DNA of 64,000 bases from Phlegmacium glaucopus (taxonomy: Eukaryota > Basidiomycota > Agaricomycetes > Agaricales > Cortinariaceae), in assembly GCA_015039465.1 (NCBI GenBank), contig MU130532.1, positions 603,582-667,581 of the forward strand, written 5' to 3'. Position 1 is the stretch's first letter; every line of letters begins with the position of its first letter. The position numbers and the translations under genes were made by a program. Of the stretch, positions 2,897 through 30,697 are shown one piece after another. The notes under the pieces were generated by a model. It had not been told where the DNA came from, did not search any database, and worked only from the letters and a program-made list of their open reading frames with translations.

Positions 2897-2916
2897 ACCT
2901 TGCTGTAAAGCAAGGT
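2897..2916 (-). repeat. 3' terminal hairpin of Helitron A
   Basis: A perfect 7-bp stem with a 6-nt loop, identical over all 20 bases to the hairpin at 31000-31019 in element B. On the element's own strand it is preceded in both copies by TTTAGACCYGG. Sequence just after it differs between the copies, which places the 3' terminus at or within a few bases of GCAAGGT. Near-palindromic CAACATTTGTTG-type sequences flank it at 2861-2873 and 2935-2948. Confidence 0.85.
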
Positions 2917-3719
2917 CCCTCCCGGGTCTAAAGTCAACATTTGTTGTGTCACGTTCTCATGAATCAATACAAATAAATACTCCACTTTTTCTTCCTGGTC
3001 GAAACTCGCAAAAGCTTCCGCAATGTTGAAACACTCTTTGTACTTATTTGTTTTATCGGTTTATGGTACAATTCATCCTCCTTGTACATGTTCCTACAGC
3101 CCAAAATGAAGGTTGTCGCCTTAACACATACTCACACCCCAAAAATTCCTTAGTTGGATTATGAAATTTTCATATATAGGCGCAAATGTCATTATCGACG
3201 ACCACGTGCGGGCACGTGTGGGGTTTTGGATTGATTCCCACGTCCACCGAACCGAGGTGTCCCTTTCATTGTTCTAAAGCTCGTGTTTAACATTCTATGT
3301 TTCGTCTAATAGGTCTATAATGCGACGCTGTCTGCGATCTGTTTTCCAGTATTCACCTTTATCTAAACTTATCGTCTCTTTCGTTTGCAGCCTCTTCCCG
3401 GCCTCTTTTCCGACCGCGCTGGTCGACATTAAATCATCTGGAGTTGTCGTCGGCCCCGCTCTTTTAATAGGTGCGTTTGGTATGAAGTCGCCTTTCATTT
3501 GTATCTTACACCCCATGTCTTAACCCTCAAGGTTCCCTTTCTGCACCAGTCGCGCTTCACCTCAACATGCTATCGCCATCCACGATTATGAAGTTTTCCT
3601 TATCATTTCGATGCGTTTTTATGCTTATTTTCAACACGAACTTCATCTTTGTATGTTAATCATTGAAAGACACTTACATACGAACCCAACTTTTGCTTTT
3701 CCCTTCAACCAGTACGTTT
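2917..3719. other. 3' non-coding part of Helitron A
   Basis: This lies between the helicase stop and the terminal hairpin. A short frame on each strand at 3295-3523 has no counterpart in element B. I see no gene here. Just inside the hairpin, a TTTGTATTGATTCATGA-like stretch on the element strand resembles the equivalent position in B. Confidence 0.5.
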
Positions 3720-6700: not shown

Positions 6701-9700
6701 TCTCTGTTGTTTTTTGCTTGCGTAATTGGTAATGTACCATGTTAACACGCTAGTCTCTCCTCCATTCATGATGAGCTTTATATCGTGGTTGGATCTGATA
6801 GACATCAACAATGGCGGATTCCAATTGTTCAGATAGCCACACAGTCGTCTTGGCCCCCATCTTCCAACACTATCAACCCAATCATCCACTGCTAAAGGAA
6901 ACGGAGCGCGTCGTTTACATACGGCTCGCCCTTTCACGATTTTCAGACAGTTCGCATACGAACATTTATGCAGTTGAGTCATACGCGCGATGTCTAATTC
7001 CGCCGTCTTCCTACTCCTAACATCTGACGGATTTCGAGGATCCAGGGGTCGTGAATAACAAACCGCATCTACTTTCTTCATCGCCATTACCTCCTCTCTT
7101 TCCTTCCCATCCAAATCTGCTCGAATCGTTTTACTGATATAGTGTTTTATTTTTTCACGGAACGTCACGTTTGCTAACGCTCGTTTTAGTTCCAATGCTG
7201 TCGGAGCGCCTGCCAACCACAATAACAGGTGCAAATGCAGAGATCCCCTGCCCTGTGCCTCTACTGTCCCCACATAGCTCTTCACTATTCCCAATATACC
7301 TTCCTTCCTCACAATCGTCCCATTCCGCCGTTTAGATACTCCTATCAAAACCTCCAATATTGTTTCAATCATGAAATGAAAGAACTTCGCAGACGCATAT
7401 GGGTCTCCCGCCATATTTAATGCTCTGTCAACACTATCTGGCCCCGCGGTGTTACAAAATCGGTTCAGATCGATCTCGACTCCCGCAAAAACCTGTGCAA
7501 TAGGATCTTGCATATCTGATGGATTGATTGTTACCCAAAGGCTTGGTGGGTTATGGAGAATATTCGTGCCCCAAATTTTGCTTCTTATCGAATTTCGAGA
7601 CTCGTCTGACCCTTGCACTTTAGTTTTCACGGCGCTCAACTGATTGCGAAGAATTCGAACTGCCAGATTGGAGAAAGGAACACCTCGGGTCTCCTCTTCG
7701 CTTGCTTTCGTTAAGTCTTTCGTGGTTATAGTCGACAACATATTTTGATGTTGGAAATAGGAATGTCTCTTCATTTGAAGCATTGACGCTCGACACACTT
7801 GTCTTTTTTGACAGATGCCAAAAACTTGGAATGGGAAATGAGGATCTTTCCTGAATCGTCTGTCTTCATATTGCAATGCCCACCGAACGTGTGCTTCATA
7901 TGGGACATTAACCGTCCGTTCCGTTTCAAATCCGCCTCGTCCAAATGGAAACAACGTAGGAAAACATCCTAATAAATGGTTGGCATCGCTGGGTCCACCA
8001 TCATTCCGTTGTCCAGTTGCAGCATCTACCCTCGCATACTCATTTACAAACGCACTTCCTCGTCGAATCATATAGTCTTCTTCTTGCGTACCTTGAGAGC
8101 AGTTTGCTAATGCATGTGCCATGAGTTCGGATTCAGTGACCTCCACCCCGTCTACATCAACAACTCCCAAGTGTGCCAAAGGCACTACCCCAGGTTCCAT
8201 GACCGTTTCATCATCGTCGACATCTATTGCCATGAAAATGACCCCGGAAAGAAAAATGATAATAAAAACCCCTGTTTGTTAGTAATGTCCTGAATTAGGT
8301 ACGCCCTGAATTTTTACCTGTATCTTCCATTGACGCTGATTCTACACATACAGGATTTTGTTGAAAATGCAGTCGTATTCCAATATGGATCACATACCTT
8401 CTTCGTTGTCCTCGTCAATCACCTCTTGAGATGGCACATACCCTTCTTGTTCCGCGTAGAGCGTATTCACATCCGTCGAAAATTTTGTCGTCGCCAACAA
8501 CTCGTAAGGTATGTCGTCCTCTGGTAATTGTGCGAGTCTTGATGCTGATATCGTAATGTCCTTGTAAAGCGGGTTATTCTTCTTCAGCCACTCCAACGCA
8601 CTCTTCACACGAGCCCTCCTAACCTTGAACATATTCGGCAAAGTCTTCTCGGGAAGATTTTTAGGTCCAACAAACGTGATACCTACAGTCGCGGTGAGAA
8701 CCTTCGCTCCTTGCGGCATAATAGAACCATCAATCATAGTAGAAATTTGTGATTGGTGCAGTCGATAAGTTGACACATTGCCTCTCAAACCACTGTACAG
8801 CTGACGGCTATCCCATCGACGAGCGCCGGTCTTTTTTGGATACAGTTTAATGATGTATGCGGCAGGAAAATATTTGGCAATGAGAATTCGTTCGGGCAAT
8901 GTCAAAAACACCAATTCCTGTGGAATATCGCCTATCCACAATCCATTTGCGAGCGCGAACATGGGCGTCCTGTCTGACTTAAGTGCTCTTATACACTCTG
9001 AACACATATTGGCGAATTCATCACCCCTAACTCCATGTGGATGAAGTAACATTCCGTTAAAGATATTATGGAATGCATGACGTTCCATAGGCTTTAATCG
9101 ATGATGATTGGGAATAAAGTCGAGCCGATGTACTGAGAGGTCTTTCACCACCGTTTCTCGAGCACATGCTGCGCAAATAGCAGTGGCAAGCGCCTCATTG
9201 CTCGTACGATCTATAAATTCTGCTATTGCACCGTTGACAACTTCTTCGGAAGGTGCTTTCATGAATTGATTTTGACATAGCAACTCGGTGATCCCATCCA
9301 CATCACTCGCTTCAAGGGCACAACATTCGCTTTTGTTTGAAAGTTCACCCCGCTGGTCGTCTTCCACAAACCCACCTCTCCGAGAATACATTCGTTCACC
9401 CATCCGAATACTGGTAACAACCGATTGACGAATCGCTTCTTGAATCGGAGTGGGAGCTTGACTTATAATTAAGTATATTGCTGACCGCGTGGAAGCTCTC
9501 GATCCGCGTATAAATCGTTGACAAGTCTTCTTGAGGTTTGCCACCGAATATAAGTGGCATACCTCATGTATGCTTCCCCCGTCAAAAAATAAGGGTGTGT
9601 AGTCAATGGTTTGTTTCCTGTTAATTACACACGTCTCTCAATTTTGTTCACAACAAAATTAACAGGATCCAACTCACCACGAATCAATTGGAATCAATGG

Positions 9701-10054
9701 GCGTGGCTCAATTTCGCCTCTGTCCAGGGTTTCATTACAACTCCCACTTGTACTCACATTGGAATCAATACTTTCATACACGGATCGCATATCGTTCGTA
9801 GCCGTCAACAGGCGGATTGTCTGCCGCATTGCATGTTGTGTGTCTTCATCGGACAAAGCAATAAATTGATATAGCCTTCCTCGTGAAGCGATTGTTGTCC
9901 ACTTTGTCCTACTCTCCCGATTGCATACCGCCCTTATCTTACTGACTTCGACATTTTCGAGCTCCTCATGAACTGACACTCCATCTTTGAATGTCCAATG
10001 AACTAAACCGTCACTTTCACACAAAGTGAGCACTTGTCCTGCATTGACCATCAA
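3720..10054 (-). pseudogene. Helitron Rep-helicase (HUH Rep + PIF1 helicase), one in-frame stop
   Basis: This is the rolling-circle replication initiator fused to a PIF1-type helicase. In order it has: an N-terminal repeat unit (HWTFKDGVSVHEE) and a second copy (FFDGGSIHE) joined by an intron near 9673; a DUF6570-like domain with two CxxC pairs (ICAACARE, CSEC) and LPERILIAKYFPAAY; the Rep domain with the HUH motif GSLHLHLLLW and the tyrosine motif WYITNYASKKQ; then helicase motifs GHGGTGKS (Walker A), LILDEVSM (Walker B), GDFHQFPPV and YVALSRSRGRK. Small introns lie near 8390-8234 and 5272-5244. A single TGA at 4997-4995 falls between Walker A and Walker B. The same frame continues open on both sides, so this is a point nonsense change, not a frameshift. 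It is the partner of the gene at 23849-30208 and roughly 80% identical by eye in the Rep part. Confidence 0.9.
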
Positions 10055-10397
10055 ATCGATTACTCACCTTTCTTCAAACATTCTTTCTCGCAGCATTGTG
10101 TATAGTAAACTGTACTCCCTCCCGTTCGCATTTTCTATCCTCCCTTTTACACATCAACAATTTGTTTGTTATTTGCCACCCGTCGATCGATATCCATTAC
10201 ACACTATGCTAATGATCGAATACCATTCAAAACATTCTAGATCACAACCACGATTAGAGAACACACATCGCCTGACTGACGAAACCTTAAACGGACTAGC
10301 GATGTACTGGTATCAATGTATTCTTACTCTGAAATGAATCGCTTACATTGGAACGATTTTATTTTATTTTATTTTATTTTTTTGCCACCGTCTCAAA

Positions 10398-11212
10398 TCA
10401 TCCAGTTAACATAACGATGCGCTGTAAGCTACCCAAGTGATTAATGACATCTTCTACAACCTCACCATCAAACGAATCCACAGCTGCAAATATGTGAAAC
10501 GTATACGCCTCCATCCAATACGTCTAACGAACGTTTTTAAAGCCAGTAATTAACATGCAATGAAAAATACTCACTCTATCGAACATCAACAAATCATTAC
10601 TAACGTCTTCACACCGAAGCTCCACCACCGCTAATATAAATGAACCTATGTCCGATGGAGACAGCGAACAATTCAACAAATTATATTGACTGCATGACTT
10701 CAAAACCAATTGATTGCTTGCAGTACGCCAATGTGAATACTACATCACCAATCAACGATTTAGTTCAAATTTTTTAGCAAGAAAATAGTAAAGATACCTG
10801 TGTTTTCACACTGCCCATCCTTTTATCGTCATCTTCTATTCCTCGGAGAGTATCCATTTGGTTACGAAACACGTCTCCAAAAGTTGAATGGTCATTGTGA
10901 TCACATTGCCGAACGTTGACTGTTAGATACCGCCCAAACTATTAATAGACACCAACATAACTCAAAATTTAAGATTTTCCATACAATTCATACCAAACAT
11001 ACCGCATGCTCAATCACCTTAAAAGACATGAGCTGCCCAACCACCAAAAATCGATAAGGCACTCCCTCTATGTTGATAAATGACTGAAAACGTTGAATCG
11101 GAGTCGAAAAAATTAAATTGGGATGCCCAAGATGAAAATGACGGCCGTAAGCTGCATGCGCGAGGGTGACGTCTGGATATGCTGAAATGAACCTTTCGAG
11201 TGTTGTTGTCAT
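10398..11212 (-). CDS. Helitron accessory protein 2, copy A (unknown function)
   Basis: I do not recognise this family. Exon 1 (11212-11003, 70 codons) begins MTTTLERFISAYPDV and ends KVIEHA at a GTATGT donor. A later exon holds HWRTASNQLVLKS and CSLSPSDIGSFILAVVEL. The last exon begins TYWMEAYTFHIF and ends at TGA 10400-10398. Each block aligns with the gene at 20242-21060, including the same exon 1 length. The acceptor of exon 2 (around 10850-10930) is ambiguous. A further in-frame ATG lies at 11257. The gene sits between A1 and the Rep-helicase, in Rep orientation, and ends 344 bp before the Rep start. Conservation in two diverged Helitrons argues for a role in transposition or its control. 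The predicted protein is small (about 190 residues) with no signal peptide or membrane segment. Confidence 0.7.
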
Positions 11213-11913
11213 GATGCAAAAGAAAATAAACCCCTGCTTAGTTAAAAACCGGTTCATAGACAGCGCTTTTTCTTATGAGACCGCCGGAGAATGTCTGAGA
11301 CATTTGCGAACAAATGTCGTCAGATTAATAAGCAATAAGAGAGCTGAATGTGATTTCTTCCTTAATGTTTTAACCATCCCGCATTTTAAAAGGACATCTA
11401 AGTTATCAAATAAGATCATTGATTTTGAAGTTCATATCTCACTTTCTCCATTTCCTTCCAGACACATTTTCAAAAGTAAAGAAATGGGCTAAAATCAGTC
11501 GTTCGCAAAAAGTTGAAAACCATATGATTTTACGTTTGATCAAAGGAACTGCGATCGCTGAGTAATATTGGAGTCTCTTCATCGATCATCCAGGTTTTTG
11601 ACATTAGTAATATAGTTATGACCTCAATCATTTGTCATCTAAACAAATGCTTTCAAATCTTCAAAAAAAAAAAAAAAAAGGTAATACAAACGAACGATGT
11701 CATGAAGAAAACTTACAAGAAATGTCATGTCAAACACCTTTCGATCCCTTAACAGATCTGAAATTCCACGTCCTCGATCATGAAACGCCACGAAACACGC
11801 GATGAAAACATAAAGACGTCACAAAAGAAACCCTACCATCCCATTAAAACCCCAAACAAAACCCCGTCAATTCTTTCCCTCCATTCACATCGTCAGTTAT
11901 CATTGCGCTAAAA
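11213..11913. other. Divergent spacer between A2 and A1
   Basis: About 700 bp between the starts of A2 (minus) and A1 (plus). It contains an A16 run near 11664-11680 and no supported gene. It presumably carries the promoters of both accessory genes. The equivalent spacer in element B is 19154-20241. Confidence 0.45.
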
Positions 11914-13257
11914 ATGGAAAATAAAAGGTATGTCTTTCTTACAAATCCACGACAAACACCACCTAATCGACCTGACCACCCCCAAAAAAAAAGTACAACG
12001 ACTCCTTCACACGATTCGGAATTCAGTGCCGCATGGACGTGAACGACTTTACTAAACACCGCTACATATCTTGGTTCACCCGATTTTATGTCTAACGTCA
12101 TGTGGATGAAATCGGGAAACGTTAACGATCTGATGATTGCACCGAATAACCTCAACGATACACCATCCAATCGAGCGACATGCGCAATCGTTGGGACCGT
12201 ATCTCCCCTTCGACTTTTCTTGGAACCACATGGCAACTTCAATCCCACTTTTGAACATTCCACATTTGAAACATCAAAAACACAGTTTCAACTCGTGTCG
12301 CCAACCAGCTACCCAGAATTCAATGCCGATTTCGAACTCGCAATAAAACATGTCGAGGACCTTCAAACCAAGGCAATCACAGATGGCCCTAATGCTAAAT
12401 ATTTCGTAATGTGGGATGACAAAAAAAAAGCGTTAAAGTTCTCTTCGCCATTATTCGAAAGAAGGGTATGTAAATATTTAATTTCAAATTCATATACGCA
12501 CTAACACTGAGCATAATCGTATAGACGAAACAATATGATCGTAAGTTATTTCCATTTTTGATAGCTACAATCGATTTAAACCCGTAAATCCCAGCAACGG
12601 ACGAAGAAGATTGGACAAATAGTTACCCAATGACCGAGCGCTATAAAGACGCGTTCCAAGATATTATTCCTAGATGGCGCGTCTCGCCATTACCTGCATA
12701 CGACACTACCAAAAAGTTCATCAAAGCGAACGATCTGGAAACCAAACTGAGAGACTCTTTGGTGCTTGTTTACTTCGAATTAAAACACTACGCTATCAAG
12801 GACAAGACGACGAATAGCATTGGGACCAACACCTTCACAGCACTTGCTACCCAAGTTACCGTCCTTGACCATGGAGCGGAACACAGTCCAACGCCTTACA
12901 AAAGCCGAATGCTGAAAGGACCGACATCCCTTCCGCAATCACCCACAAAAAAAAAGGAGCAAAAGACCGCTGTCAATGCTTTTCACCCCGGTAATACACC
13001 TTCCCTCGTTATTTTTAATTCCATTCTCTATTCTAATGTTAATTTTAATAGCTGCCGCATCCAATTCCAATATAGGCGTCCTCGACCAATCGATTACCGA
13101 CATACACAACCCGACCTTACCTCAAAATGAACGTGTACTTTCAAAAGCCGATGGAAAAAAAAGAGCACTAGACGAAGACGCAGAGGCTACCGCAACTGAT
13201 GGTGAGACCTCCCTCGCTGAACATCCATCACCCAAAAAAAAAAAGCAAAACAAATAA
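11914..13257 (+). pseudogene. Helitron accessory protein 1, copy A, with nonsense codon
   Basis: This is the copy-A partner of the gene at 19153-17798 and is of unknown function. A short first exon (MENK) is spliced at AG|GTATGT to an exon starting STTTPSHDSEFSAAW. The same arrangement (MDTA, then STPAISSESNFSAPW) is found in copy B. A TGA at 12040-12042 interrupts the frame where copy B has CGG (Arg). After it the frame runs open through MWMKSGNVNDLM, HGNFNPTF and SSPLFERR. A tiny exon (TKQYD) follows, then TDEEDW and LVLVYFELKHYAIKD, and the gene ends with an intron and a basic tail (GKKRALDED, SPKKKKQNK) that looks like a nuclear localisation signal. It reads opposite to the Rep gene. An alternative start at M12088 would bypass the stop but lose the first conserved exons. 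Confidence 0.7.
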
Positions 13258-13346
13258 ACACCGAATACTCATTTGTCACTCTTTCACTTCTTTTTCTCCT
13301 TAATGTATAACACCGAATGTATCAATACAAAACGTCCTTAGTAATT

Positions 13347-13379
13347 CAGCAAGGTGTCTGTCGACGAAGTCGACCGCTA
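13347..13379 (-). repeat. 5' terminus of Helitron A: hairpin and asymmetric inverted repeat
   Basis: Read on the minus strand from 13379, the end is TAGCGGTCGACTTCGTCGAC. GTCGAC pairs with GTCGAC across a TTC loop. After AGAC comes ACCTTGCTG (13355-13347), which is the inverse of the last bases of the element's own 3' hairpin. The first 20 bases are identical to those of element B (17548-17567), while the adjoining sequence outside differs. Confidence 0.85.
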
Positions 13380-14330
13380 TACAAATAAACACAATCACTG
13401 TCAATCCCTTTATAATCACGTGACATTGGTTGTGCATGGAAGCAGATGGAAGCCGTTCTAAGTACGTAGTACAGTAGAAGTTCTCATACTGCATAGCCTC
13501 GGGACCGGCCATTGGGTTATGCATTAATAGATTTATGCAGGACGAAAGTGTCACAAATTGTGACATATGTGACCCTCTGACCAATTGGGCGACAGCGTTA
13601 CTCGGTTTTCGTAAAATAACTGGGTCAACAACGTTTGAGTAGAGCTAATAAGATTTTCATGCAACAACTGGGCTCTGTACTTGCGTAATTGACAAGGCAA
13701 TTCTAAGGAGAAGCTCTCACCTCCTGATACCTGGCACAAACTTTTTCGAGCCTTTCACAGAGCTTCATGAGTTCACATCGCGAGGGCAAACCATCGACAT
13801 CATCATCCTCCGAGTCCGAATCATCAAGTTTGATGACTTCACCACAGGCAACTATGCATGATAGTATTCTTTGTAACAGAGCCTTAGGCTTTCGTATGTA
13901 AGGTTTTGCTTTTGCGCGAGCCTGTTTACGGGTGGTTCAGGACCAGCAGATATTTCCATCGACTTTGTATCCATGGTGTTCGCTCAACTTTTTATGAGGA
14001 AAATTCTGTCATTCCACCTTAGTACCGTACCCTGTTAAGTTAAGCATTATTCTAATAAATCGCAAGCAGTTGGTGGTGTTCCCGACCCTATGTCGTCGCC
14101 ATTCATCAGTATAAACAAAATTCCCACCTACTCCGATAATGCATATTGGGGTCCCCAGGCCTATGCATTATGCATTATGCAATATGCACCCCATTTCCCT
14201 GCGTCCCATGGTGGTTCCGACGCCAGACCTATGCATTAATAGATTTATGCATCATGACGTTATGCATTATGAAAACTTCTACTGTAGCAGTCTATGCCCA
14301 ATACAGACATCCTGAACTCAAACCACCGCA
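13380..14330. other. Intergenic stretch with ATGCATTA-rich repeats
   Basis: No gene is supported. A 22-bp sequence with core ATGCATTAATAGATTTATGC occurs perfectly at 13518-13539 and 14230-14251. More ATGCATT units cluster at 14160-14190 and 14262-14272, just upstream of the mitochondrial carrier gene. Confidence 0.6.
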
Positions 14331-15827
14331 ATGTCAGCAGGGAGAGCAACCAAACTGCCTGCCTCCGTTACTTGCGATGAATGTCAACCTTTACTAGCTG
14401 CATCCAGAAGCGATGAAGATATCACTATTATTACTTCTACCGACCCCGAAGATCAAAGGAAACTTGAAAGATCGGACGAACTAGGCTGGAAATTATATAC
14501 CTTCTATGGGATTTCAACCGCTGTAGGTCTCCTGGGTCTGACTTTGCTCATTAAACGGTGCATCCATGCTGGAGATATGAAAGTGAGAACCTTTATTCCT
14601 GTTCAACTTTCAAAGCAAATGTTTGACATTTTTGCCTCATGATTTAGTTTGATTTGAGAGGAGCGTTGATGAGCGCACTTGGCGGAGGACTAAGTGGTGC
14701 AGCAGGTAGAGTAAAATATTTTATACCCACTTTCATCATTTCTGATTCTTTGAATTCCGGAATGGTTAGCAATGGTACTCCAAGTTCTTACCCTCATGGT
14801 ACGTTCATAATTCATTTGAATACCAATTAATTTCATAATAATTGTTTTAACCGACCTTCAGCCATTGCGTACAGTCATGAACTACCAATACCGTTACGGC
14901 ACAACCGCAACCCAAGCCGTCCACACCCTTTATGAGGACGGAGGTTGGACGCGATATTACCAAGGTCTCACAGCTGCTCTCATCCAAGGCCCTGTATCTC
15001 GCTTCGGAGACACAGCAGCGAATGCAGGCATCCTTGCCTTGTTGCAAAGTAACGCGTACATGAAGAAGCTCCCCATACTGATACAAACAATCTTTGCCAG
15101 CCTTGCCGATATTCCCTTTCGAATGATCTTGACTCCTGTGGACACAGTGAAGACGACATTACAGACCCAAGGAAGGCCGGGAATGCGGATCCTTCGTGCT
15201 CGGGTAAGGCTCTTTTCTTTCATCTTGAATGTTTCTTTTCAAGATGATATTCTAACCTTTCGCAACTATAGGTCAAGATGTATGGTATCGGAAGTCTATG
15301 GTACGGTGCTCTTGCAACTGCGGCAGCCACCTTTATCGGGCACTACCCAGTCAGGCATGTTGTTTAATGTCATACTCTATATGATTAATGTCCTCGCAGT
15401 GGTTTGGGACCTACAATTACCTAGAAGCCAAGCTTCCTATTGCCCACACCGTTTTCTTAAACCTCATCCGACACGCTTTTATCGGATTTATAGCCTCCGT
15501 GATTTCTGACTGCGTATCTAACTCTCTTCGCGTGGTCAAAACATATCGACAAGTCAATGAGACCCGTATAGGATACATAGCAGCCGCACAAGCTGTTATT
15601 GCCGTAGATGGTATAAGTGGTCTTCTCGGCCGCGGATTGAAGACTCGTATTTTGGCGAATGGATTGCAAGGGGTGATGTTCTCGATACTTTGGAGGTTCT
15701 TGGATTTGTGAGTTCCTTTTTACTTGCATTCGACTTCGCACAGAGTGTGGTGGGATGTGTGGAAAAGAGATTCTAAAAATAACTAACATACACATATGAT
15801 TGCAGGTGGAACAAGAAAACAACGTAA
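14331..15827 (+). CDS. Mitochondrial carrier family protein (SLC25-like)
   Basis: A predicted inner-membrane solute transporter; the substrate cannot be told. Spliced exons give an N-terminal soluble extension (MSAGRATKLPASV), a hydrophobic segment (GISTAVGLLGLTLL), then three repeat-like units. The unit signatures are PLRTVMNYQYRYG, PVDTVKTTLQTQG (the canonical P-x-D-x-x-K carrier motif) and SNSLRVVKTYRQ. The EDGGWTRYYQGL and VDGISGLLGRGLKTR stretches match the G-x-x-G-F/L-Y-R-G part of carrier repeats. Introns fall near 14580-14647, 14706-14770, 14799-14862, 15205-15271, 15353-15400 and 15710-15805. The final exon encodes WNKKTT and stops at 15827. The gene lies in the host island between the two Helitron 5' ends and shows no break. 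The weakly canonical first repeat suggests a divergent subfamily. Confidence 0.8.
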
Positions 15828-16589
15828 GAAGTCAAATGCACTGGACAATGGGCCTTATATAGGACAGGAAATGGGGATGACTGAGCGTCCAGACGAATCT
15901 GCATGCCCTCCAGACCAAAAGACGATTGTGGATGCTTCATCTATATGCCCCCGCAGCGAAATGTCCACCTCAACAAAATAGTCGTATATTCGAACAAATG
16001 TGAAGAACGTGTGGTCATAGTCACGACGTTTTGATTTCATACAATAAATGTTTATCACGAAAGCTCGGGTTCAACATTTGAACGATTTCAACGATCGCCA
16101 TGGCCCCTCATGTTTTCAAGATCATCCGGCCTCAAATTCGACCCTCAACTTCGACATCCTTTAAGCTGTCCACAGCGTCTCAACTTTCGTGTGCTCGAGC
16201 CACATGTCCGCCCTTGACAATTTTTATCCCGTTTACTGTCAGCTTTTAACGTTTGCGCTGTCCCAATCATCACTGGCCTCGCAGGGTTTTCCCCGGTTTA
16301 GTGATGACTACGCCTAAATCATTGTGGAATGCAAGAAATAGAACAGTATTGGAACAGTACTCCGAGTGGACTACAATTTGCAATGCACGCGCCATCCTTA
16401 AACCTTGCAACTTGCAAAGCTGCAGTTGCCACATAGCTGGTTAGGGAGTCCATAGACGAGAGCTACATCGTGCACCATCCCATTCAATCTCTTCGTTATC
16501 TGACGTTCTCCGGGATTACATTTCATCACTTCTCAGATTACATTGACTAGGAACCAAATAGGAACGGTTAAATACTCGGGGGTGGCTCA

Positions 16590-17489
16590 TCAAGCTACTA
16601 ACGACCCGATTTGAGAAAGTCCATCGAAATCAGATATGACATGTTCGAGACATGTAAAACTTACCATAACAAACTTCTTGAATGCTTCGAAGTACTGTAG
16701 GACGATGCGCCTATTCTCCAATGGCCGCATCCCCTTGCCACGATCCACGTAATGGGTACTGTCTGGTACACGGGGAACAAACTGCAAGACAACCGTCTTG
16801 TTTGCAGGGTAGGACGCCGTTGATATCGCATCAACCAGGGTATCGGTAACGGGAATCAAGTAAAAGACTGCAGCGGTACCGATCATCACGATACCGGGCA
16901 TAAGTTTGTGGGCCAGCTTTGGTAGACCCGCTAGCCTACGAATCCCGTTGTTCTGATGAAAGGCGGCGATTGCCTCGGCGACGAGCTGGGGTTCAAAATC
17001 CTGGTTGTAGCCTTGGCGCTGTGAAGTCATCAGAAAGTTTGATTCTGCAATCTGACAGAAACTCGCCTTGCCTTCCTGCACAAGAAGAATAAACCGACCA
17101 TCTTCGATCACGCAGACGTCGGTTTTGGCATCTACTCGGTGCCCTGCCATGATGAATGGGATCTCCTTCCTGGAACGGATCAGGCGCTGCCGGCCACTAT
17201 TATACTTCATCAGGCGCAAAAGGAGAGCGGCAAAGTCGTCAACTGCAGATTCTTCGAATCCGTTCTCCACAGATGACAGATGCAGAAAGAAGTCCCGCTC
17301 GTCGTCCAATAGGTCGCCATCTGGCATATCCAAGTTATTGAGGATTGTCGGGGAGATAAAAGATTGGGGAAGCTCAGGATTTCCGAAGAATATGGTAGTG
17401 TCGGTGTCGACCACCTTGATGTTGAATGCGAGAAGCTCGTTACTGGTCCAATCACTTCCCGACTTAGCCGATCGTATGAGGTTTGCCAT
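16590..17489 (-). CDS. Uncharacterised fungal protein, possible PD-(D/E)XK-like fold
   Basis: An open frame of 299 codons starts MANLIRSAKSGSDWTS. It contains KTDVCVIEDGRFILLVQEGK, then QLVAEAIAAF, GIVMIGTAAVFYLIPVT and PLENRRIVLQYFEAFKKFV. The pattern D...(Q/E)-x-K followed by an Ala-rich helix resembles PD-(D/E)XK nuclease-like folds, but that is inference only. The family seems to be one of the multi-copy Agaricomycete families. A GTAAGT donor after KKFVM (around 16670) suggests the true end lies in a further exon, so the last 25 codons here may be intron. The start codon is only 59 bp from the 5' end of Helitron B, so its upstream region is now transposon DNA. Confidence 0.6.
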   Translation of the reverse strand: MANLIRSAKSGSDWTSNELLAFNIKVVDTDTTIFFGNPELPQSFISPTILNNLDMPDGDLLDDERDFFLHLSSVENGFEESAVDDFAALLLRLMKYNSGRQRLIRSRKEIPFIMAGHRVDAKTDVCVIEDGRFILLVQEGKASFCQIAESNFLMTSQRQGYNQDFEPQLVAEAIAAFHQNNGIRRLAGLPKLAHKLMPGIVMIGTAAVFYLIPVTDTLVDAISTASYPANKTVVLQFVPRVPDSTHYVDRGKGMRPLENRRIVLQYFEAFKKFVMVSFTCLEHVISDFDGLSQIGSLVA

Positions 17490-17547
17490 GATGATGATCG
17501 TAAGGATGTGGGGCAGGATGTGAATGTTTGCAAGAGATTTAAGTCAC

Positions 17548-17581
17548 TAGCGGTCGACTTCGTCGACAAAAAACCTTGCTG
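17548..17581 (+). repeat. 5' terminus of Helitron B: hairpin and asymmetric inverted repeat
   Basis: Twenty bases are identical to the 5' end of element A and include the GTCGAC-TTC-GTCGAC hairpin. A run of A and then ACCTTGCTG (17573-17581) follow, the latter inverted relative to the 3' hairpin. Confidence 0.85.
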
Positions 17582-17797
17582 AGTAATCCTCCTTCCTTTT
17601 CGCAACATAAAATTAAGAGTTATGTATACAAAGTTGAATATATGATTTGGGATGTTAACATACAAGCACATTTAGCTATTGAAGACAGTGTATGTAAATA
17701 ATAGTCGGCTTTGACTCATTGCAAAGCTGTATGATTATCTAATTCCATTGCAAGAATTCGTATTAATTCAGTGGCCATTCGATGGAGTTGAAGGTAT

Positions 17798-19153
17798 TTA
17801 CCATTTGTTTTGCTTTTTTTTTTTTTTGGCTGGACCTTCGACGAGAGGGGATTCACCCTCGGTTGCTGTAGCATCATCATCTTCATCCACCGCCCTCTTT
17901 TTCCCGTCCACCTTCGTTAACAAACGTGCATCGGCATATTGAGTGAAAGGGAGTTCGCGAATGGGCCCTGAATTATCATCTTCAGAACTGATGGTGGTGC
18001 TGGGGTTGGGAGTTGATGCCCCAGCAATGAGTGCTGTTTATATAAAAATGAATTTTGTAATAAGTATTGATGTCTTTTGTCGTTACCTGGGTGAAAGGAG
18101 ATCGCGGCACTTATTTGGTCTCTCCTTATGCTGGGGGATTGAGGAAGGAATGTTGGGCCCTTTAACGCCAGGCTTTTATAGGGAGACGGAGTACGTTTTT
18201 TGGCAGGTTCGAGGATTTGAATCTCTGTAGCCGTGGCGGAAAATGTGTTGCTTGCTTTTCCATTGTTATTCTTTTCTCTGATCGCATAGTGTCTCAAGCT
18301 GAATTGAATGAGGACGAGTGATCCTTTGAGCGAGAGTTCCAGGTCGTGAGTCTTGATAAGTTTCCCCTGAGCATCATACACACGCATTGGGTCCACTCGC
18401 CATTTATGAATTATATTTTCGAACATGGTCTGGAACCTGTCTCCGATTGGATATCCGTTAGACCAGTCCTCGTCGTCCGTGGCTGCGATCAGAATGATTA
18501 AAATTGTGAGTATCTCAAAGTTTAGCCTACGTACAATTGTACTGGATGGTCTGGATACACAGTGTCAGTGTTGGGATGAATTTAACTTATCAGCAAAATA
18601 AGCACTCACCCTCTTCTCGAACAAAGGCCAAGAGAATTTGATCGCCTTTTCTCGCTTTGATGTATCCCAGACAATGAAATGTTCTGGGCCAGGTCCATCA
18701 GTCGCCGCCTTCCTTTGAAGATTCTCGATGCGTTCAAGGCTGGTTTGGAAGTCTGTCTTGAATTCTGGGTGGGTTTGGGGGGACACGATTTGGAATTGTG
18801 CTTTTGCGGTCTCTAAAGTTGAATTAGGGAAGCTGGGATTGAAGTTGCCATGGGCGTCTACGAAAAGTCGATCACTGGAGATGACGCCGACTACTGTACA
18901 CGTTGCTTTCTCAGAGGGGGTATGCTTGTTATCGAGCGGCGCATTCATGAGATCGTTCTGGTTGCCGGTCTTCAGCCACACCACTTCCGAATCAAAACCA
19001 GGTGAAGCAACATAATTGCGTGTATTTATCAACGTCGCCCGCATCCATGGAGCACTGAAGTTGGACTCGCTGGAGATTGCTGGCGTGCTATTGAGGACAT
19101 TGAGTTTTGATTCGCTCCATAAGAAACAAAGTTTCGCACCTAGCAGTATCCAT
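17798..19153 (-). CDS. Helitron accessory protein 1, copy B (unknown function)
   Basis: I do not recognise this family. Exon 1 encodes MDTA (from 19153) and is spliced at AG|GTGCGA to STPAISSESNFSAPWMRATL. The long second exon has VVWLKTGNQNDLM, LFVDAHGNFNPSF and IVWDTSKREKAIKFSWPLFEKR. Later exons encode WRVDPMRVYDAQGKL, LVLIQFSLRHYAIREKNNN and TFSATATEIQIL. The C terminus is acidic then basic (DGKKRAVDEDDDATATEGE, PAKKKKKQNKW), a likely nuclear localisation signal. The alternating beta-rich pattern of the LVLIQFSLRHYAI block could be an OB-type fold, which would parallel the RPA-like ssDNA-binding proteins of plant Helitrons, but this is only a guess. A 14-base A run near the end (17814-17827 on the plus strand) encodes the Lys tract, so its length sets the reading frame of the stop. 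The gene is transcribed toward the element's 5' end. Confidence 0.75.
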
Positions 19154-20241
19154 TTTTTTTTATTGGAGGGAAACGAGGAGTGGCTGAATTTTTTTCAATC
19201 TTAAACTTAAATGTCTTATATTCGTCCGAGTCTCTTCAAAGGTTGGCATACGATAGCGGATGTCTATTTTTAAAAATGTTAGTGTTATTCATTGTCCATT
19301 GTTGTTGATTGCGCCTACAGCCGTAGCCAATAATCAAAAGATCGGAGATCGAGATTCATGGTCGCTGGCCGTGAATTGATTCTAGAGTGTATTCGGTCAG
19401 TCTGACATGTATAATGAATCTTGATATGAACATCGGGTATGTTAAAGCGACATACATGGCAAATGCTTGTTTCATAACATATATGTTCATGTCGGCATCG
19501 TTAAGTTGGGAAACCGGGATTTGCACGACTAACAAAATGGGTATTCATGAGAAATGGTAAGCATCGTGATTCGCTGTCTCACCAAAAGCGATGAAGGAAG
19601 GATTAGTGAATCAGGTTGGTGATAGCGCTTTGGACCTTTGATAAAGGAAGTTAGGTACTGTGGTATAACGCCGTCGAATACTGACTTGTTTGGTCACTGT
19701 GATGCAAACAAAGATCCCAAATTTGCTCAAATCATGAGGGTAGCGTTGTGAGACATTCCGCATGGGTACCTCAACTGTGTAATGGAAATCGATCGACGAC
19801 GGTATTAAAACTTTTGCAGCTGAGAATTGTTGGTATCGTGACCTTTATAATTAAAGGATGAGTTCATAGACCTTTCAATTACCAAACGTTAGAAACCAAG
19901 ATGTCTACGTTATACATTAATAACAGTACCATACCCGGCATCGCTGAGGAGATTAGGGTCGTCAAGTGTTTATAGTAATGAGCGTTGAAAGACGTATGAC
20001 ATTTTGAGGTCGGGTCGTGTTCTAAACCCTTCGTACCCTTTAATGTAAAAGTGCAATGATGACTTACCGATCCTCATGGTTATATTGGGTTATAGGATCT
20101 GAGACTTATATCCCCTTTGAGGAGGAGTGCGAAGAACAGTTACGTGCAAATCCTTTCAACGCTTGTGGTGTTGGCCACATTCACTTTGTCAGATATTTGA
20201 ACCACCTATATCAGTCCAACAAAAACACCTTTATCTTGATT
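19154..20241. other. Divergent spacer between B1 and B2
   Basis: About 1.1 kb without a supported gene. It holds the outward-facing starts of B1 and B2 and therefore probably both promoters. An in-frame ATG at 20056 could extend B2 upstream, but the paired gene A2 does not support that extension. Confidence 0.45.
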
Positions 20242-21060
20242 ATGGCGACTATGCTTAAGGACTTTATTCTGGCTTCTCCCAATGTTTCTCTTTCCCATGC
20301 TCATTACGGTCACGATTTTCAATTTGGCAATTCTACCCGTCTGTTTTCGTCACCAATGCAACATTTTCAATTTGCTGTTGAACTTGAAGGCTCTGAAAAT
20401 CGTTTTATTGTCCTTGGGCAACTTACTGGTTTTAAAATCGTGGAAGACTCGGTGGGTGACTTTTCATACATTACCTTATTGACTTTTAATTAAATATAAA
20501 TTTTCTTTTGATGTTGAGTTCGGTTTGTGTTTGTCGCTCGACTTAGGACAAATTGGATCATCGTGTTTTTTTGCTGGCCTGTTTCAGGCACAGCTAGAAA
20601 CCCTGGAAAGCGTAGAAGAGCAAGATGCGACGGACTGTGCTGTGAAAGATCAGGTATGTCATTCTTTAACTATAACCCTCGATTGTAGCATATCATTTGT
20701 TCGCAGCATATAAAATGGCGCAGTTCTAACAATCAGTTGAATCTAAAAGCTTATGGACGACAGAACATTGCAAACTGTTCCTTGTCCTTGTCTGATGTTG
20801 GATCTTCCATAGTCGCAGTCATGAAGCTTTGCTGTTTAGATGTTAGTTGTGGTCCATCCACGTATTCAAGGGTAGGTTCTTTGATCTTACTCTTTTGTTT
20901 TAAACATTGTGTACTGAGCGCTTACAAAAATTAGACATATTGGATTGAGACGCATAGTGTCTATCCGTTCACTGCAAATGAATTAATTGATTCAGAACAT
21001 GTTCAAGACATCATCAGGCACTGGCGGATGACGAAGGAGTTCATAAATTCTGATATCTAA
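20242..21060 (+). CDS. Helitron accessory protein 2, copy B (unknown function)
   Basis: Four exons can be joined cleanly: 20242-20451 (70 codons), 20588-20653 (22), 20707-20871 (55) and 20935-21060, giving 188 residues. All introns are phase 0 with GT-AG ends. The start MATMLKDFILASPNVSLSHAHYG aligns with copy A (MTTTLERFISAYPDVTLAHAAYG). RFIVLGQLTGFKIVED aligns with RFLVVGQLMSFKVIEH, CSLSLSDVGSSIVAVMKL with CSLSPSDIGSFILAVVEL, and TYWIETHSVYPF with TYWMEAYTFHIF. The conserved exon layout and reading frame point to selection on the protein. There is no signal peptide, membrane segment or known catalytic motif. The gene lies in Rep orientation between B1 and the passenger genes. Confidence 0.78.
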
Positions 21061-21522
21061 GAAACATCTCTCTTTATGACCGCAAATAAAAAATTCTTTG
21101 ATTAAACATCGTTGTTTTTAATTGTAAGTCGGAAGGAGGTAAAATTGTTGCTAGGCTGGTTATGGGTCCATTTTTTTTTCCTTCACCTTCTGTCCAATCA
21201 CTGTCCATTCCCATTTTTTATTGATGTTATTGACTGCGGTAATTTCAGTAAATGATCTTCATTGCTCGCAAGTGGTTCTCAACTTCAAATGGAAGATAGG
21301 TGTTGCTTTGATAATGCATGTGCACACCAGCCTCGTTCCACCTGCTCTGATCTGACTCAGGTTCAGGAATTTCGGGAAGGTCTTCTCGATCGTACTGGCT
21401 CAGCTTTTTCACGGTTTGGACTCAAGCAGCTATTATTTTTTGTGGTCCATTAGAATTTCATGACACGCTGAATGAAACGTTCAGTGTAACGGTGTTCATT
21501 GTGTATTATGACAAGCGAAATA

Positions 21523-22551
21523 TCAGACAAGAGTTACATTTTTATGATTTGGACAAGTTGAGTTAACACATCGCAAACCCAGTCTCCACTTGTAATTTGA
21601 ATCACCAATGTCATCGGTCAATGAATTGATATCCTGGTGGTTATTGTTGTCTTCATACCCTCCCCAGCGCATGATTCCTACGCCATCAAGTGCTTCAGTA
21701 CATCTCCAAATGGCTAGACAGGCTGTACCACAGACAAAGGCACGTTGGGTCCTTGGATTGACGCATCGGATACCCCTCTGTGAAAGTCGAACGAGATCGG
21801 ATACAATGAGCTGAGCCATACCTCGCATTGTTTCTCTTTGTGATAACAATTTGGGATAGAAACAATACATTCTCTTTGCTGTGAACGCATTGAACTGACA
21901 AGTGAACGCTGATGAAATTACGACTGGAATGATTGAAGGTCCTTTCGCGGCGGTGATTGTGATGGTTGTACCCTAGACCATGTGTAAAACATTTAGATTT
22001 TGGCTGTTTTAATGGTTTTACAAGTGGGAGGTCCTTACCGAGCTTTGTATCAACCTTATGAATCGGCTGGCGCATTCATTGTAGACAACACTGGGGGGTC
22101 CATCATATTCGACGAGTGTTCCCGATCCGCTAAGGAAGTTCTTCAGTCTATCAACGGCGTAGGGCGATTTGTTTGGAACAACGATGTTAAGGTCTCGTGG
22201 TGCAATTCTATCCACCGTCATGACATTCAATGCAGTGGAACCGACAACCGCGGAATTGGTCTCTTTAATCAAGTAGAAAAAGGCCGAGATGTCATTGAGA
22301 AAGGGTGTAAGAGACTTTTGCATGCGCTGTCGAACTGAAGTGTAGACGATCTCCCTGGCGTGGATGCTGGTATGAGTGAGGTTGACCAAAGTGGTCCATG
22401 AACATTGGAGGAGGATTTCAGTCATGAGTTCCGTAACGTTGAAGACGACGGCTGCTGCTTTTGGCTTGTTTGAAATGCCAAAAGCCTTTTGAAGGAGTCG
22501 TGCAGATTTCCTTGTATGGTGTTTTAGCATAGGATGTTGTATGTGAGGCAA
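21523..22551 (-). CDS. F-box-like protein with nucleotidyltransferase-like region, passenger gene
   Basis: Two exons (22551-22039 and 21972-21523) are joined at TCG|GTAAGG...CTAG|GGT. The N-terminal part (VFNVTELMTEILLQCSWTT, then LVNLTHTSIHAREIV) is F-box-like. It is followed by SAVVGSTALNVM and RDLNIVVP, which resemble the GS...DLN/V pattern of nucleotidyltransferase-like folds. The C-terminal exon has FTAKRMYCFYP, RCVNPRTQRAFVCGTACLAIWRC and a closing CVNSTCPNHKN. The architecture recalls multi-copy F-box/nucleotidyltransferase-like proteins that I associate with Agaricomycetes. The gene lies antisense inside Helitron B, between B2 and Rep, where element A has nothing, so it was probably captured. 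It looks full-length and unbroken. The enzymatic function is not established. Confidence 0.65.
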
Positions 22552-22590
22552 CAGCGAGCGCCGGCAGACACAGTGTTATTTCCAAATAAA

Positions 22591-23313
22591 TTACAGTCTG
22601 ATATAAGAACAAATTTGTGTAGGTCTGACGTCGTCCATTTTTCCATGTGAAAACTTATGGAAGAATCTGGAACAGATAAATTTTAATACTTTAAATGATG
22701 CGGAGTTTGCGTACATTTCTAATTTTTGACGGATCATTGGAATGTCGGAATGGTGGATATTCATCATGCCTTCAATTGTACTCCACTTCAAGACCAGCAG
22801 GTCTCCCAACCAAGTAAAACTCACGGTTGGAAGCATGTTCTTCAATAGATGATTGCTATCACACCGTCCAGGGTGCTGCGTTGGGGTCTAATGATATGTC
22901 AGATGACGCACACACTTGAAGTAACATCAAGCAACGAACTTGTGACTCCATCACCAATGTGTAGTGAATGGCTTCGTCCACGTCATTTAATGGTACGTTA
23001 GGAAGATTCTCGAAATTCGTTGCTAAGTTGATGACTTTTTGAGTTCCATACATAGCATGAGACAGCCAGAATTCGACCGCCATGTCCTGAGGTGTGCGAG
23101 CGTGGTCGATACCGATGTCGACAGGCACCGACACTATGTTGATCCTGGAGCAGTGAGTCCCCAACAAGATACCGTAGTAAACGTTTGTTTGCTATCGGTT
23201 GGACTTTATTCAAAACCCCAAAAAGGAAATAGAAAGCAAAACATTATTGGGGGGCTTACTGGAGTTTGAGTCCTGATGCGTTTATGAATTATGTTGATGT
23301 CGTAGTCCTCCAT
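22591..23313 (-). CDS. Uncharacterised fungal protein, second passenger gene in Helitron B
   Basis: The first exon starts MEDYDINIIHKRIRTQTP (ATG at 23313) and ends at a GTAAGC donor. The next exon has TNVYYGILLGTHCSRINIV and EAIHYTLVMESQVRCLML. The frame then shifts unless a short 40-bp intron (GTGTGTGCG...CGCAG) is removed, after which NHLLKNMLPTVSFTWLGDLLVLKW follows. That last block resembles the WxGdilVlKh motif of small fungal proteins often found near repeats. The 3' exon boundaries are unsure and the true stop may differ from the one given. If the 40-bp intron is not real, the gene is frameshifted. Confidence 0.45.
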
Positions 23314-23848
23314 AGCTGTTAGTTCTTGGAAGAAATGACGAAAGGGATGCAAAGACGTTGGAGTTATTTCATAGAACGTATTGACAGAGTGTTTGTTTGG
23401 TCCATTTTGATAGAGTTGTAGACAAGGAGTGGATTTGATCGTAAGATCGATGACTGGTCAAGGGTCTGGTTTCAGATTTTGAGGGTCTTTATGTGCGTCT
23501 CTGTTTTCATTCCCCTTTATAAGCCAAAAAGGAAAGGAAAGTAATGTTTAAGCGCAGTCATCAGACCTACAGGGGTTTGCATTCTGAATTGTTTGTCACT
23601 TGAATCTTTATCGTGGCGTTGTGTGAAAATAGCCCGCGTTTGAATAGATGAAATGATTTGAATAAACAAGTGGAATTTTAACAATGCAAATAGCAAATAG
23701 TATGCAACAAAGTTGTTATCAAGTTACAGAAATAGTGGAGGAAAACGGCATATGGAGTTTGTCAACTCTGATTAAAAGAAAATGCTACCAAAGAAAAAAA
23801 AAGAACAAAGGTTTGCTTTTCTTGGGTGTTCAGGTCTTTACATGATAG
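23314..23848. other. Spacer before the Helitron B Rep gene
   Basis: About 530 bp of AT-rich DNA between the start of the second passenger gene and the Rep-helicase start. No gene is seen. It probably contains the Rep promoter. Confidence 0.4.
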
Positions 23849-26800
23849 ATGCTTACTGGTGAACAAAGTGAACATCTGGCTCATTGGACGTTCCACGATG
23901 GGGTGCCTATCCATGAGGAATTCCATAAAACCAATATGAATAAAATTCGAGCTGTGTATAATCAGCAGAGCAACACTAGGCGGCCAGATGTCGGTTCGCG
24001 GGCTAAGTGGGCAAATATCGGTTCACGTGAAACATTGTATCAGCTCATTGCGGTGTTGGATGAGGCAACGCAACTTGTGATCCGTGAAAAGTTGCTGTCG
24101 CACTCAATGGGGGCAGCTGCCCCTCCCCAGTCGCTTTCCGATAGTCCAATGGTAGACTCTGCCGGTCCTTCAAGTTTTCAGGTCAGCGAGAACCCATCAA
24201 TGGGAAATGATGTTCAGCACCGGACCCCAAGGTATTAATCATTGCTAACAAATACACTGTCAACGAGACTTAATTATCGTGACTTGTCAGAAGGGTGAAT
24301 GTTGACTATACACTCACCTTCCATGACGGTCAAACCATGCATGAAGTGCTAAATCAATGCACAGTCACAAATCTAAAAAAAAATTGTCAACGACTCATCC
24401 GCTGCTCAAGACTAACAACACGATCTGCGTTATACTTGGTCATTGCACAGGCACCGGCACCAGTACAAGATGAGATTCGACGTACGGTTGTAGAGGCCGT
24501 TAGGTCAGGTGTGAAGAAGTTTTCACGGCAAAGCGGATCCATCCCAGGGGGCCAGCACAATAGCCAGGTTCAAACAGAGGATTTGTTGTTACCTCAAGTC
24601 CGACTAGCGGATGGCGACATGGTTCAGCCAGATTCGGATCCTGTAATCGAAAGATTATGTCAAAACTCGTTTATGAAATCACCCTCGAAAGAGGTGGTGG
24701 AAGCTGCGATGGCCGAATTTATCGATCGGACGAACAATCTAGCGCTGGCCACTGGTGTTTGTGCAGCATGTGCTCGTGAAATGCCTGTTAAGGAACTGAC
24801 GACACATACCCTCAATTCTATTCTGAATCCTGCTCGTTTAAGGCCTGAGGAGAGCCATCCGCATCATGACCTCTTTCAGGATATGCTACTGCATCCGCCA
24901 GGAATCCTGAATGCCAGATTTGCATATCTTTGTGATGATTGTGTCCGGGCCCTGAAATCGGATTCAGTTCCGATGTTCGCACTCGCCAATAAGCTGTGGA
25001 TTGGGAAAATACCTCACGAACTAGCGTTTTTAACACTCCCTGAACGGATCCTGATAGGAAAATATTTTCCTGCTGCATACATCTTTAAACTCTTTCCCAA
25101 AAAGACTGGCGCTCATCGCTGGGAAAAGAGTCAGTTGTATAGTGGCCTGAAGGGAAACGTATCCACATACAGACTTGATCAATCGCAGATTTCATCCATG
25201 GTTGACGGCTTGATCCTACCACCGATATCCAAAGTTCTGGCCGCAACAATTGGAATTACTTTTGTAGGCCCAAAGAATCTGCCTGAGAAAAGCATGCCGA
25301 AGATGTTCAGAGTCAGGAGAAGTCGTGTGAGGGAGGCATTGGAATGGCTTAGAGCAAACAATCCTCTATACAGCAATATCTCCATATCAGCTTCGAGGCT
25401 TGAACAGCTGCCAGAGAATGGCATACCTTATGAATTGATGGCGACCGTGAAACACTCTAGTGATATGAATATGCTCTACGCAGAGCAAGACGGCTATGTG
25501 CCTCCACAGGATATCAGCGACGGAGAGGCAGATGAAGGTAAGAAGGAAAGTTTGCTTAAGCTAAGTAATTCACCGAGATTCCAAATAGAGGTCTTCACGG
25601 ATTCAGATGAAGAGTCAATGAGTAAGCATACTTTTTTTTTTATTTTTCTTCTTTTTTATTTTTCCGACTATTTTTTTTTGATTGAATGACATTATGTTCA
25701 CAGATGTTGATGACAATGAACCAGATTTGTTCGCGGAACCAGGGGTGGTACCATTGTCCCATTTGGGTGTCGTTGACATTGACGGGATTGATATTACGGA
25801 GTCTGAGCTTATGGCCCATGCCTTAGCTAATTGTTGCGAGGTCAGGCAAGATGAAGACTACTTGATTCGAAGAGGTAGTGCCTTCGTTAATGAATATGCC
25901 AGAGTAGATCCTGTCACAGGACAACGGAACGATGGGGGACCAAGCGACACCAACCACCTGTTAGGGTGTTTTCCTACTCTCTTTCCCTACGGACAGGGTG
26001 GTTTTGAGATAGAGCGGCCGGTAAACGTGCCATATGAAGTCCATGTTCGGTGGGCGTTACGCTACGAAGATAAACACTTCAGAAAGGACCCTCATTTCCC
26101 GTTTCAAGTGTTTGGAGTCTGTCAAAAAAGACAGGTGTGCCGCGCATCGCTGCTTCAGATAAGGAAAGGATCCTACTTTGAAAATCAAAATCTTCTTTCC
26201 GCCATCACTGCAGAAGATCTTACCAAGGCGAGCCAGGAGGAAACACGGGGGGTCCCATTTTCCAACCCTGCTGTTTGCATGCTTTGCAATCACTTGAGCG
26301 CCGTTAAGACAAAGGTTCAAGGCTCGGACGAATCTCGGAAATCGATCAGGGCCAAGATTTGGGGAACTAACATTCTTCATAACCCTCCAAGCCTCTGGGT
26401 GACTATCAATCCGTCGGATATGCAGGATCCAATCGCACAAGTCTTTGCTGGGGCCGAGATCGATCTGGATGCATTCAGCAAAACGGCAGGGCCGGCTAGT
26501 GTCGACAGAGCTTTAAATATTGCATCGGATCCTTACGCGTCTGCGAAATTTTTCCATTTTTTGATTGAAACTATACTTGAGGTCTTGTTTGGAATCAATA
26601 AACGACGGAATGGAATAGTGATGAGAAAGGAAGGCGTTTTTGGGGTTGTGAAGAGTTATATAGGGACCGTAGAGGCACAAGGGCGAGGTTCACTTCATTT
26701 GCACCTCCTGGTATGGTTGGATGGGGCGCCAACGGCGAAGGAGCTGATTTATGCGTTGACAAATGACATATTCCGAGGCAAGATAAAGGATTTCATTCGA

Positions 26801-30208: not shown

Positions 30209-30697
30209 TACATGATTATATCGGAAAAGTTTCGGAACATACACGAGTTGACTCTTAGCATAGTCACGATCCTCAAGGGCTCTTCAGCCTTGAGTATGAA
30301 ATCCAATTGACATGCCAAGGTTGGTCGATCGGTTGATCGATTGATATGCTGACTACGTCATGCGTTCGACGTTAGCTCGAGACGGGGAGGGTTTGAGCGT
30401 CTCAGATGATGGACGAGTCTAAGACATCAGTCAGTCAACGTTGATTATACGAGGTTTTTTTTTTTTTTTTGGGGTACATACTCGAGATTTGGGTCAACTT
30501 TGGGTAAAGCAAGAAAGATAGACCAAAACTATAATAAAAGGGAAGGCGCAGCGATGAAGGGTAAGATTTTGGGTTTTGTTAGGTTTGATATGAAGATTTT
30601 GGGGTTTTAATTTTGGTCGGGTGTGTGTGTGTAGTGGGTGGGGGGTTGTAGTCGTGGTCGCACATAAAAGAGTAAAGAGAACGGACATGGGAAGGGC

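Follow-up and report, generated by a model that had tools for sequence, protein, structure and literature searches.

Accessory genes under purifying selection in a Helitron2-type lineage of the fungus Phlegmacium glaucopus

Introduction

Several kinds of eukaryotic Helitrons carry coding sequences in addition to the Rep-helicase: RPA is encoded by Helitrons in plants and, as the title of one reference indicates, in zebrafish; Helentrons possess an endonuclease domain, and other Helitrons OTU-type extra proteins; in fungi such as Pleurotus, Helitrons capture genes, a behaviour for which these transposons are well known. To our knowledge, little is established about which proteins eukaryotic Helitrons need besides the Rep-helicase. 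Here, we report the analysis of a stretch of 64,000 nucleotides (hereafter, the window) of the Phlegmacium glaucopus genome (assembly GCA_015039465.1, contig MU130532.1, positions 603,582 to 667,581), which contains two Helitron elements in opposite directions, A and B. Both carry the genes ANTI (A1 and B1), on the strand opposite Rep, and SENSE (A2 and B2), on the same strand as Rep, while a third gene, X, occurs in B and in part of the lineage.

In terminal layout and reversed Rep, A and B are like the Helitron2 group, whose elements have asymmetric terminal inverted repeats (ATIRs) and, in some cases, a reversed Rep (Bao and Jurka 2013, PMC3627910). The passages of that paper used here put the 5'-terminal hairpin, of which the 5'-ATIR is a part, 0-2 bp from the end, and give an example with a T at the 5' end that inserted beside a T without target duplication. 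For some Helitrons they mention Fanzor1 as an additional protein, and ANTI, SENSE and X are not among the proteins that these passages describe. The termini of A and B fit the published arrangement of ATIRs and terminal hairpins, with a reversed Rep.

Results

ANTI and SENSE recur with Rep in a conserved layout

An earlier, sequence-only reading of the window had proposed that A and B share two non-Rep genes with preserved exons. Both genes do lie inside the termini of both elements, with matching exons, an agreement that greatly exceeds chance, but codon 10 of the ANTI gene of A is an in-frame TGA (12040-12042) in place of the Arg codon of B, and many elements carry three accessory genes. The preservation of the exons was confirmed: in A and B, the four-codon first exon of ANTI consists of ATG, three further codons and two bases, followed by GT, and a loose form of this tiny-exon pattern occurs upstream of ANTI exon 2 in 15 of the 18 copies tested, while the first exon of SENSE spans 68-70 codons in 14 aligned copies. 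Splice sites are mostly preserved across copies; for ANTI exons 2 and 3 to join in frame, we chose a donor 4 nt past the obvious one. The ANTI exons of B (14, 449, 396 and 236 nt) encode a protein with an acidic stretch and a lysine-rich C-terminal tail, in agreement with the nuclear-signal-like tails noticed previously. The ANTI and SENSE genes are arranged head to head, their starts being 701 bases apart in A and 1088 in B. At C240:533297-541358 this distance is 6.3 kb, against the usual 1 kb or so, through an unexplained insertion or a chimera.

The genome (60.5 Mb, 259 contigs), in which the window lies, was searched with single proteins, yielding at least 127 rows for ANTI, 54 for SENSE and at least 58 for Rep, these lower bounds corresponding to the scoring of 112 of 133 ANTI candidates and 71 of 80 Rep candidates. 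Hydrophobins, with 11 matches above the family cut-off in this genome and none in 14 control genomes, are in keeping with its fungal nature. Clustering at 10 kb used 85 of the 127 ANTI rows, 41 of the 54 SENSE rows and 43 of the 58 Rep rows; the other 13 SENSE and 15 Rep rows were further pieces of listed loci, and the other 42 ANTI rows comprised 22 that entered the later ANTI-only count and 20 that were unused. ANTI, SENSE and a close Rep came together in 12 clusters, eight of which also contain X, and one of which, on the window's contig, contains both A and B. ANTI and SENSE occurred without Rep in eight clusters (X in two), Rep and SENSE in two (X in one), and ANTI and Rep in one; SENSE was alone in one cluster (C13), ANTI in 31 and Rep in nine. 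Hence, SENSE has a close Rep in 14 clusters, 12 of them also with ANTI. By locus, 23 of 24 SENSE loci lie no more than 10 kb from ANTI or Rep, and 15 of 24 from Rep, as compared to about 0.2 Rep neighbours expected by chance. The strand relation was consistent in 65 of 65 exon hits, and queries from another subfamily recovered essentially identical loci. The co-occurrence with Rep within 10 kb, suggested earlier as a check, is therefore found in this genome, and the recurrence of gene content, order and strand across the lineage argues, as the sequence-only reading did, against random capture. By contrast, neither ANTI nor SENSE was hit within 15 kb of any of the 18 more distant Rep loci, which have 30-35% identity.

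When used as a query, the 185-residue exon of X gave 11 genome matches at E 0.001, all 11 in this Helitron lineage, and the next exon is conserved in the eight copies compared. X lies antisense between SENSE and Rep wherever Rep is present, and in B it faces the start of Rep. The SENSE-Rep gap is 2.4-3.1 kb in elements without X versus 4.0-8.3 kb in elements that have X. Apart from the SENSE locus C13, all SENSE and X loci of this genome belong to elements of this lineage, and ANTI occurs either in elements of the lineage or as mostly broken or partial copies.

Among the nine Rep-only clusters, we opened C77, C14 and C123, leaving aside C148 near 128 kb and the partial matches C45, C164, C182 and C225. 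C77 and C14 run into N, C14 retaining SENSE exon 4, and C123 is interrupted by an apparent long terminal repeat (LTR) retrotransposon; C128 lies 2.9 kb from a contig start. The Rep match of C148 near 128 kb is broken but almost complete in length, and could represent an element without the accessory set. SENSE exons 3-4 persist at C105 and at another C148 locus; neither exon 1 nor ANTI turned up in the 5 kb examined there. With short tails counted, the ANTI-only clusters amount to 45, of which at least 23 lie near a recognised terminus, a lower bound that draws on 50 of 84 hairpin places; the terminus-bearing ones fit short derivatives retaining the 3' end of the element. C140 has all main ANTI exons and the 3' terminus, and is cut by a contig end, whereas the ANTI-only C215 is broken and split by an insertion. 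No single-copy host gene for ANTI or SENSE was recognised in the genome searches, C215 being the one ANTI-only locus without a terminus that was opened. Similar reading frames (..NK.IHSTIT..) are found next to the Helitron of C123 and within ANTI at C215, as a repeated insertion.

ANTI, SENSE and X are under purifying selection

The ratio of non-synonymous to synonymous substitutions (dN/dS, Nei-Gojobori) was computed for pairs with a proportion of synonymous differences (pS) of 0.05-0.65 only, which gave medians of 0.206 for ANTI exon 2 (21 copies, 39 of 210 pairs), 0.180 for ANTI exon 3 (17 copies, 27 of 136 pairs), 0.250 for SENSE exon 1 (18 copies, 54 of 153 pairs) and 0.152 for SENSE exon 3 (14 copies, 24 of 91 pairs); for Rep, 5 of 66 pairs fell in this range. 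The first exon of X gave 0.14-0.44 in the computable pairs. ANTI, SENSE and X are thus all under purifying selection. Between A and B, synonymous sites are saturated except in ANTI exon 2 (dN/dS 0.20 at dS 1.6), and the comparison of A with its nearest relative, C222, gave 0.13-0.54. Among copies selected by coverage, a criterion biased towards intact ones, and with frameshifts not counted, 19 of 21 were free of in-frame stops in ANTI exon 2, 15 of 17 in ANTI exon 3, 18 of 18 in SENSE exon 1 and 13 of 14 in SENSE exon 3. The sequence-only reading had deemed the module likely functional and a dN/dS near 1 across many copies the sign to the contrary; the medians of 0.15-0.25 are in line with a functional module, with the exception of one pair (B and C240a, about 1) discussed below. 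The near-identical gene copies of C36 and C60, and of C184 and C140, have different flanks, which points to recent movement.

In 12 copies of Rep, 11 of 16 stops fall at columns where other copies have a CGN Arg codon; this holds for most stops of C241, C36 and C203, and one column is common to three copies. This pattern hints at CpG decay and CpG methylation. Rep has more stops than the accessory genes (14 versus 2 in 11 elements, p 0.02), but we rejected this difference as a sign of selection, because 9 of the 14 lie at CGN columns, CGA codons number 128 in Rep versus 47, and 4 of the 14 lie at alignment edges.

Family, fold and function searches

ANTI and SENSE gave no match above the curated cut-off in Pfam and none in NCBIfam, consistent with the earlier remark that no named family was known for either. 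X had no Pfam match; by eye, we take it to resemble an F-box plus a nucleotidyltransferase-like motif (VGSTAWN...PRDLNI). The best weak match of ANTI was a PHROG of unknown function (0.0037; best in 6 of 14 rows, PHROGs being searched for ANTI only), and protein phosphatase chains matched weakly among PDB sequences (0.032). Scattered matches to IL2RB_N1 (0.004), BrnT, CSF-1 and these phosphatase chains were discarded as weak or below curated cut-offs. We found no similarity of ANTI or SENSE to RPA or SSB in Pfam, NCBIfam and PDB sequences, and no relative turned up in IMG/VR scans based on profiles of exon 3 of ANTI and exon 1 of SENSE. AlphaFold models of ANTI exons only, built from two-row alignments of window sequences, had a predicted local distance difference test (pLDDT) score of 43 and 37, and Foldseek with the low-pLDDT model of exon 3, which contains a conserved hydrophobic, strand-like stretch, had no hit with an E value under 0.5. 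We did not accept ANTI and SENSE as homologues of each other (hhalign probability 0.1-4.4%); one comparison outscored all but 3 of 200 column shuffles, yet over 12 columns only. The specific functions put forward by the sequence-only reading (single-stranded DNA binding, regulation or host-factor recruitment) thus received no support from domain searches.

Termini, coordinates and surroundings of A and B

A and B encode the HUH two-tyrosine Rep and PIF1 helicase of the Helitron superfamily: in Pfam, the Rep of A matched Helitron_like_N (PF14214) at 1.8e-34, and that of B matched DUF6570 at 4.1e-38 and PIF1 at 7.8e-21, while the strings HLH and YITNY, which we take to be the Rep motifs so named, were seen by eye in the Rep translation. 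In Helitron polarity, both elements start with T[C/T]ACCTTGCTGTAAAGCAAGGT, and their 3' ends consist of the ATIR, then 25-26 bases that include the hairpin, then the terminal four bases (Table 1). The 5' hairpin pattern has 84 exact places in the genome and the reversed pattern none. Common termini with differing flanks were found for 18 left ends (among 24 pieces) and 22 right ends, counting A and B. The 18 left ends have the ATIR in all cases, the exact hairpin in 16 and a terminal CTAG in 17; the right ends, which were chosen by exact hairpin match, show one purine plus A after the hairpin in 21 of 22, read in Rep orientation. For 21 of the 22 right ends and 17 of the 18 left ends, a T stands at the end or outside it, host and element base not being separable there. 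Since Rep is antisense to the polarity of the element, the Helitron2 convention places the accessory genes between Rep and the 3' end, with ANTI and SENSE next to the latter, rather than between the 5' end and Rep as first read.

Table 1. Features of elements A and B (window coordinates)
Feature	Position	Strand	Description
Element A, Helitron2-type	2896..13380	+ (Helitron polarity); Rep on -	5' end 2896, 3' end 13380; ends uncertain by one base
A 5'-terminal hairpin	2897..2916	+	With 5'-ATIR
A Rep-helicase	3720..10063	-	
A2 (SENSE)	10398..11212	-	Four exons, exon 1 from 11212; exon 2 borders uncertain
A1 (ANTI)	11914..13257	+	Exons 11914-11927, 12027-12469, 12595-12990, 13052-13257
A 3' end	13347..13380	+	3' signals of B, but terminal CTAT
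Element B, Helitron2-type	17547..31020	- (Helitron polarity); Rep on +	5' end 31020, 3' end 17547; termini common to copies with different flanks
B 3' end	17547..17581	-	3'-ATIR CAGCAAGGT, hairpin GTCGAC-GAA-GTCGAC, terminal CTAG
B1 (ANTI)	17798..19153	-	Exons 19140-19153, 18606-19054, 18087-18482, 17798-18033; 364 amino acids
B2 (SENSE)	20242..21060	+	Exons 20242-20451, 20588-20653, 20707-20871, 20935-21060; 188 amino acids
B gene X	21523..23457 (about)	-	Several exons, borders approximate; without counterpart in A
B Rep-helicase	23849..30208	+	DUF6570 and PIF1 matched
B 5'-terminal hairpin	31000..31019	-	With 5'-ATIR ACCTTGCTG

The insertion site of A seems to lie within an older, related Helitron, in the subterminal part of that element. 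A candidate empty-site relative of A was found at C195:485720-485763, as a partial match (43 nt at 91%), and the empty-site search for B gave no match in the genome. At 30928-31047, the flank immediately past the 5' hairpin of B takes part in an inverted repeat with arms of 45 nt (76%), whose other arm lies in the subterminal region of B itself; the flank is perhaps another Helitron relic. Between A and B, positions 14000-14288 belong to a dispersed repeat, a 401-base query having given 37 genome matches, mostly to this part.

Discussion

The retention of the same extra genes under selection against protein change suggests that they are useful to the transposon, and we regard such usefulness as probable. 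That the set belongs to one fungal Helitron2-type lineage and is retained because it helps the element itself is the explanation that we favour, to which we give an even chance, and the question of whether its genes act directly in transposition appears to us evenly balanced. In its fullest form, which we put forward tentatively, this explanation would have the lineage depend on two core proteins and an optional one, all of undescribed families, acting with the Rep-helicase in rolling-circle transposition and exchanged between elements. ANTI, SENSE and X would then operate in the nucleus beside the Rep-helicase, ANTI as a DNA-binding cofactor of the single strand peeled off by Rep, SENSE as a partner of ANTI or a regulator, and X as an optional third factor. 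From the strand-like stretch of exon 3, the charged tail and the precedent of the RPA-bearing Helitrons, it is conceivable, if rather doubtful, that ANTI binds single-stranded DNA.

Several observations weigh against the favoured explanation. No domain or fold found with Pfam, NCBIfam, PHROG, PDB or AlphaFold backs any biochemical role; X, which was not found in A, C222, C36, C1 and C237, is dispensable; between B and C240a, the closest pair, dN/dS amounts to 1.11, 0.85 and 1.26 in three exons, values that speak against selection in this pair; and the counts of intact copies lean on the coverage filter mentioned above. Moreover, the genes may not be inherited as one block. Across 11 elements, the protein distances of the three genes (Rep, ANTI and SENSE) show a correlation of r about 0.53, which at first suggested co-inheritance, an idea dropped when r fell to 0.03-0.24 (p 0.10-0.42) without the two closest relatives. 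The SENSE of C36 is near that of A (0.19) while its Rep is distant (0.26), and C203 has an ANTI near that of C241 (0.28) and a SENSE near that of C184 (0.34). The layout is thus conserved while the genes seem to pass from one element to another, although the signal may also be blurred by saturation.

The genes might instead serve the element indirectly, by countering host silencing or regulating its transcription outside the DNA steps. This alternative, somewhat unlikely in our view, would accommodate the head-to-head pair, the nuclear-signal-like tails, the CpG-type decay of Rep with its hint of methylation, and a change faster than that of Rep (median proportion of non-synonymous differences 0.23-0.28 versus 0.14, in different copy sets), but fast change by itself is weak evidence and Pfam revealed no silencing-suppressor domain. 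It is quite improbable that the genes are hitchhikers, captured from a host once in an ancestor and merely inherited by the copies: the known propensity of Helitrons to capture genes, the presence of X in part of the lineage only and the abundance of ANTI fragments would suit such a history, which nevertheless conflicts with the low median dN/dS, with the predominance of copies without in-frame stops in the four exons and with the lack of a recognised host donor gene in this genome, and which could be salvaged only if one host-serving copy were selected and converted the others. Least probable of all, some copies might have been domesticated and selected for a service to the fungus. ANTI-SENSE loci without Rep in reach do exist (C60, C147 and C198, for instance), but C125, C173 and C193 are located at the ends of contigs, and C225 reaches a stretch of N; the low dN/dS is spread over many divergent copies; and we recognised no intact copy that lacked remains of an element, although of the 22 ANTI-only clusters in which no terminus was recognised most were left unopened, and C215, which was opened, is broken.

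The selective retention of the same extra proteins in one lineage provides named candidates for Helitron cofactors, and cautions against taking every extra gene of a fungal Helitron for a passenger. Extra genes as such are a known feature of Helitrons; what is new here, provisionally and if undescribed, is a conserved and selected pair of genes with an optional third, without known family. Like the RPA-encoding Helitrons, this lineage has a fixed extra gene beside the Rep-helicase, but ANTI and SENSE show no detected sequence similarity to RPA or OB-fold proteins. Lineage-specific extra coding sequence is likewise found in Helentrons and OTU-type Helitrons, from which the present elements differ in that Pfam detected no endonuclease or protease domain in ANTI, SENSE or X. 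Finally, the gene-capturing Helitrons of the Pleurotus type are also fungal and also carry non-Rep genes, whereas here the same genes, for which a host donor was not recognised, recur in the same order across divergent copies and are under selection.

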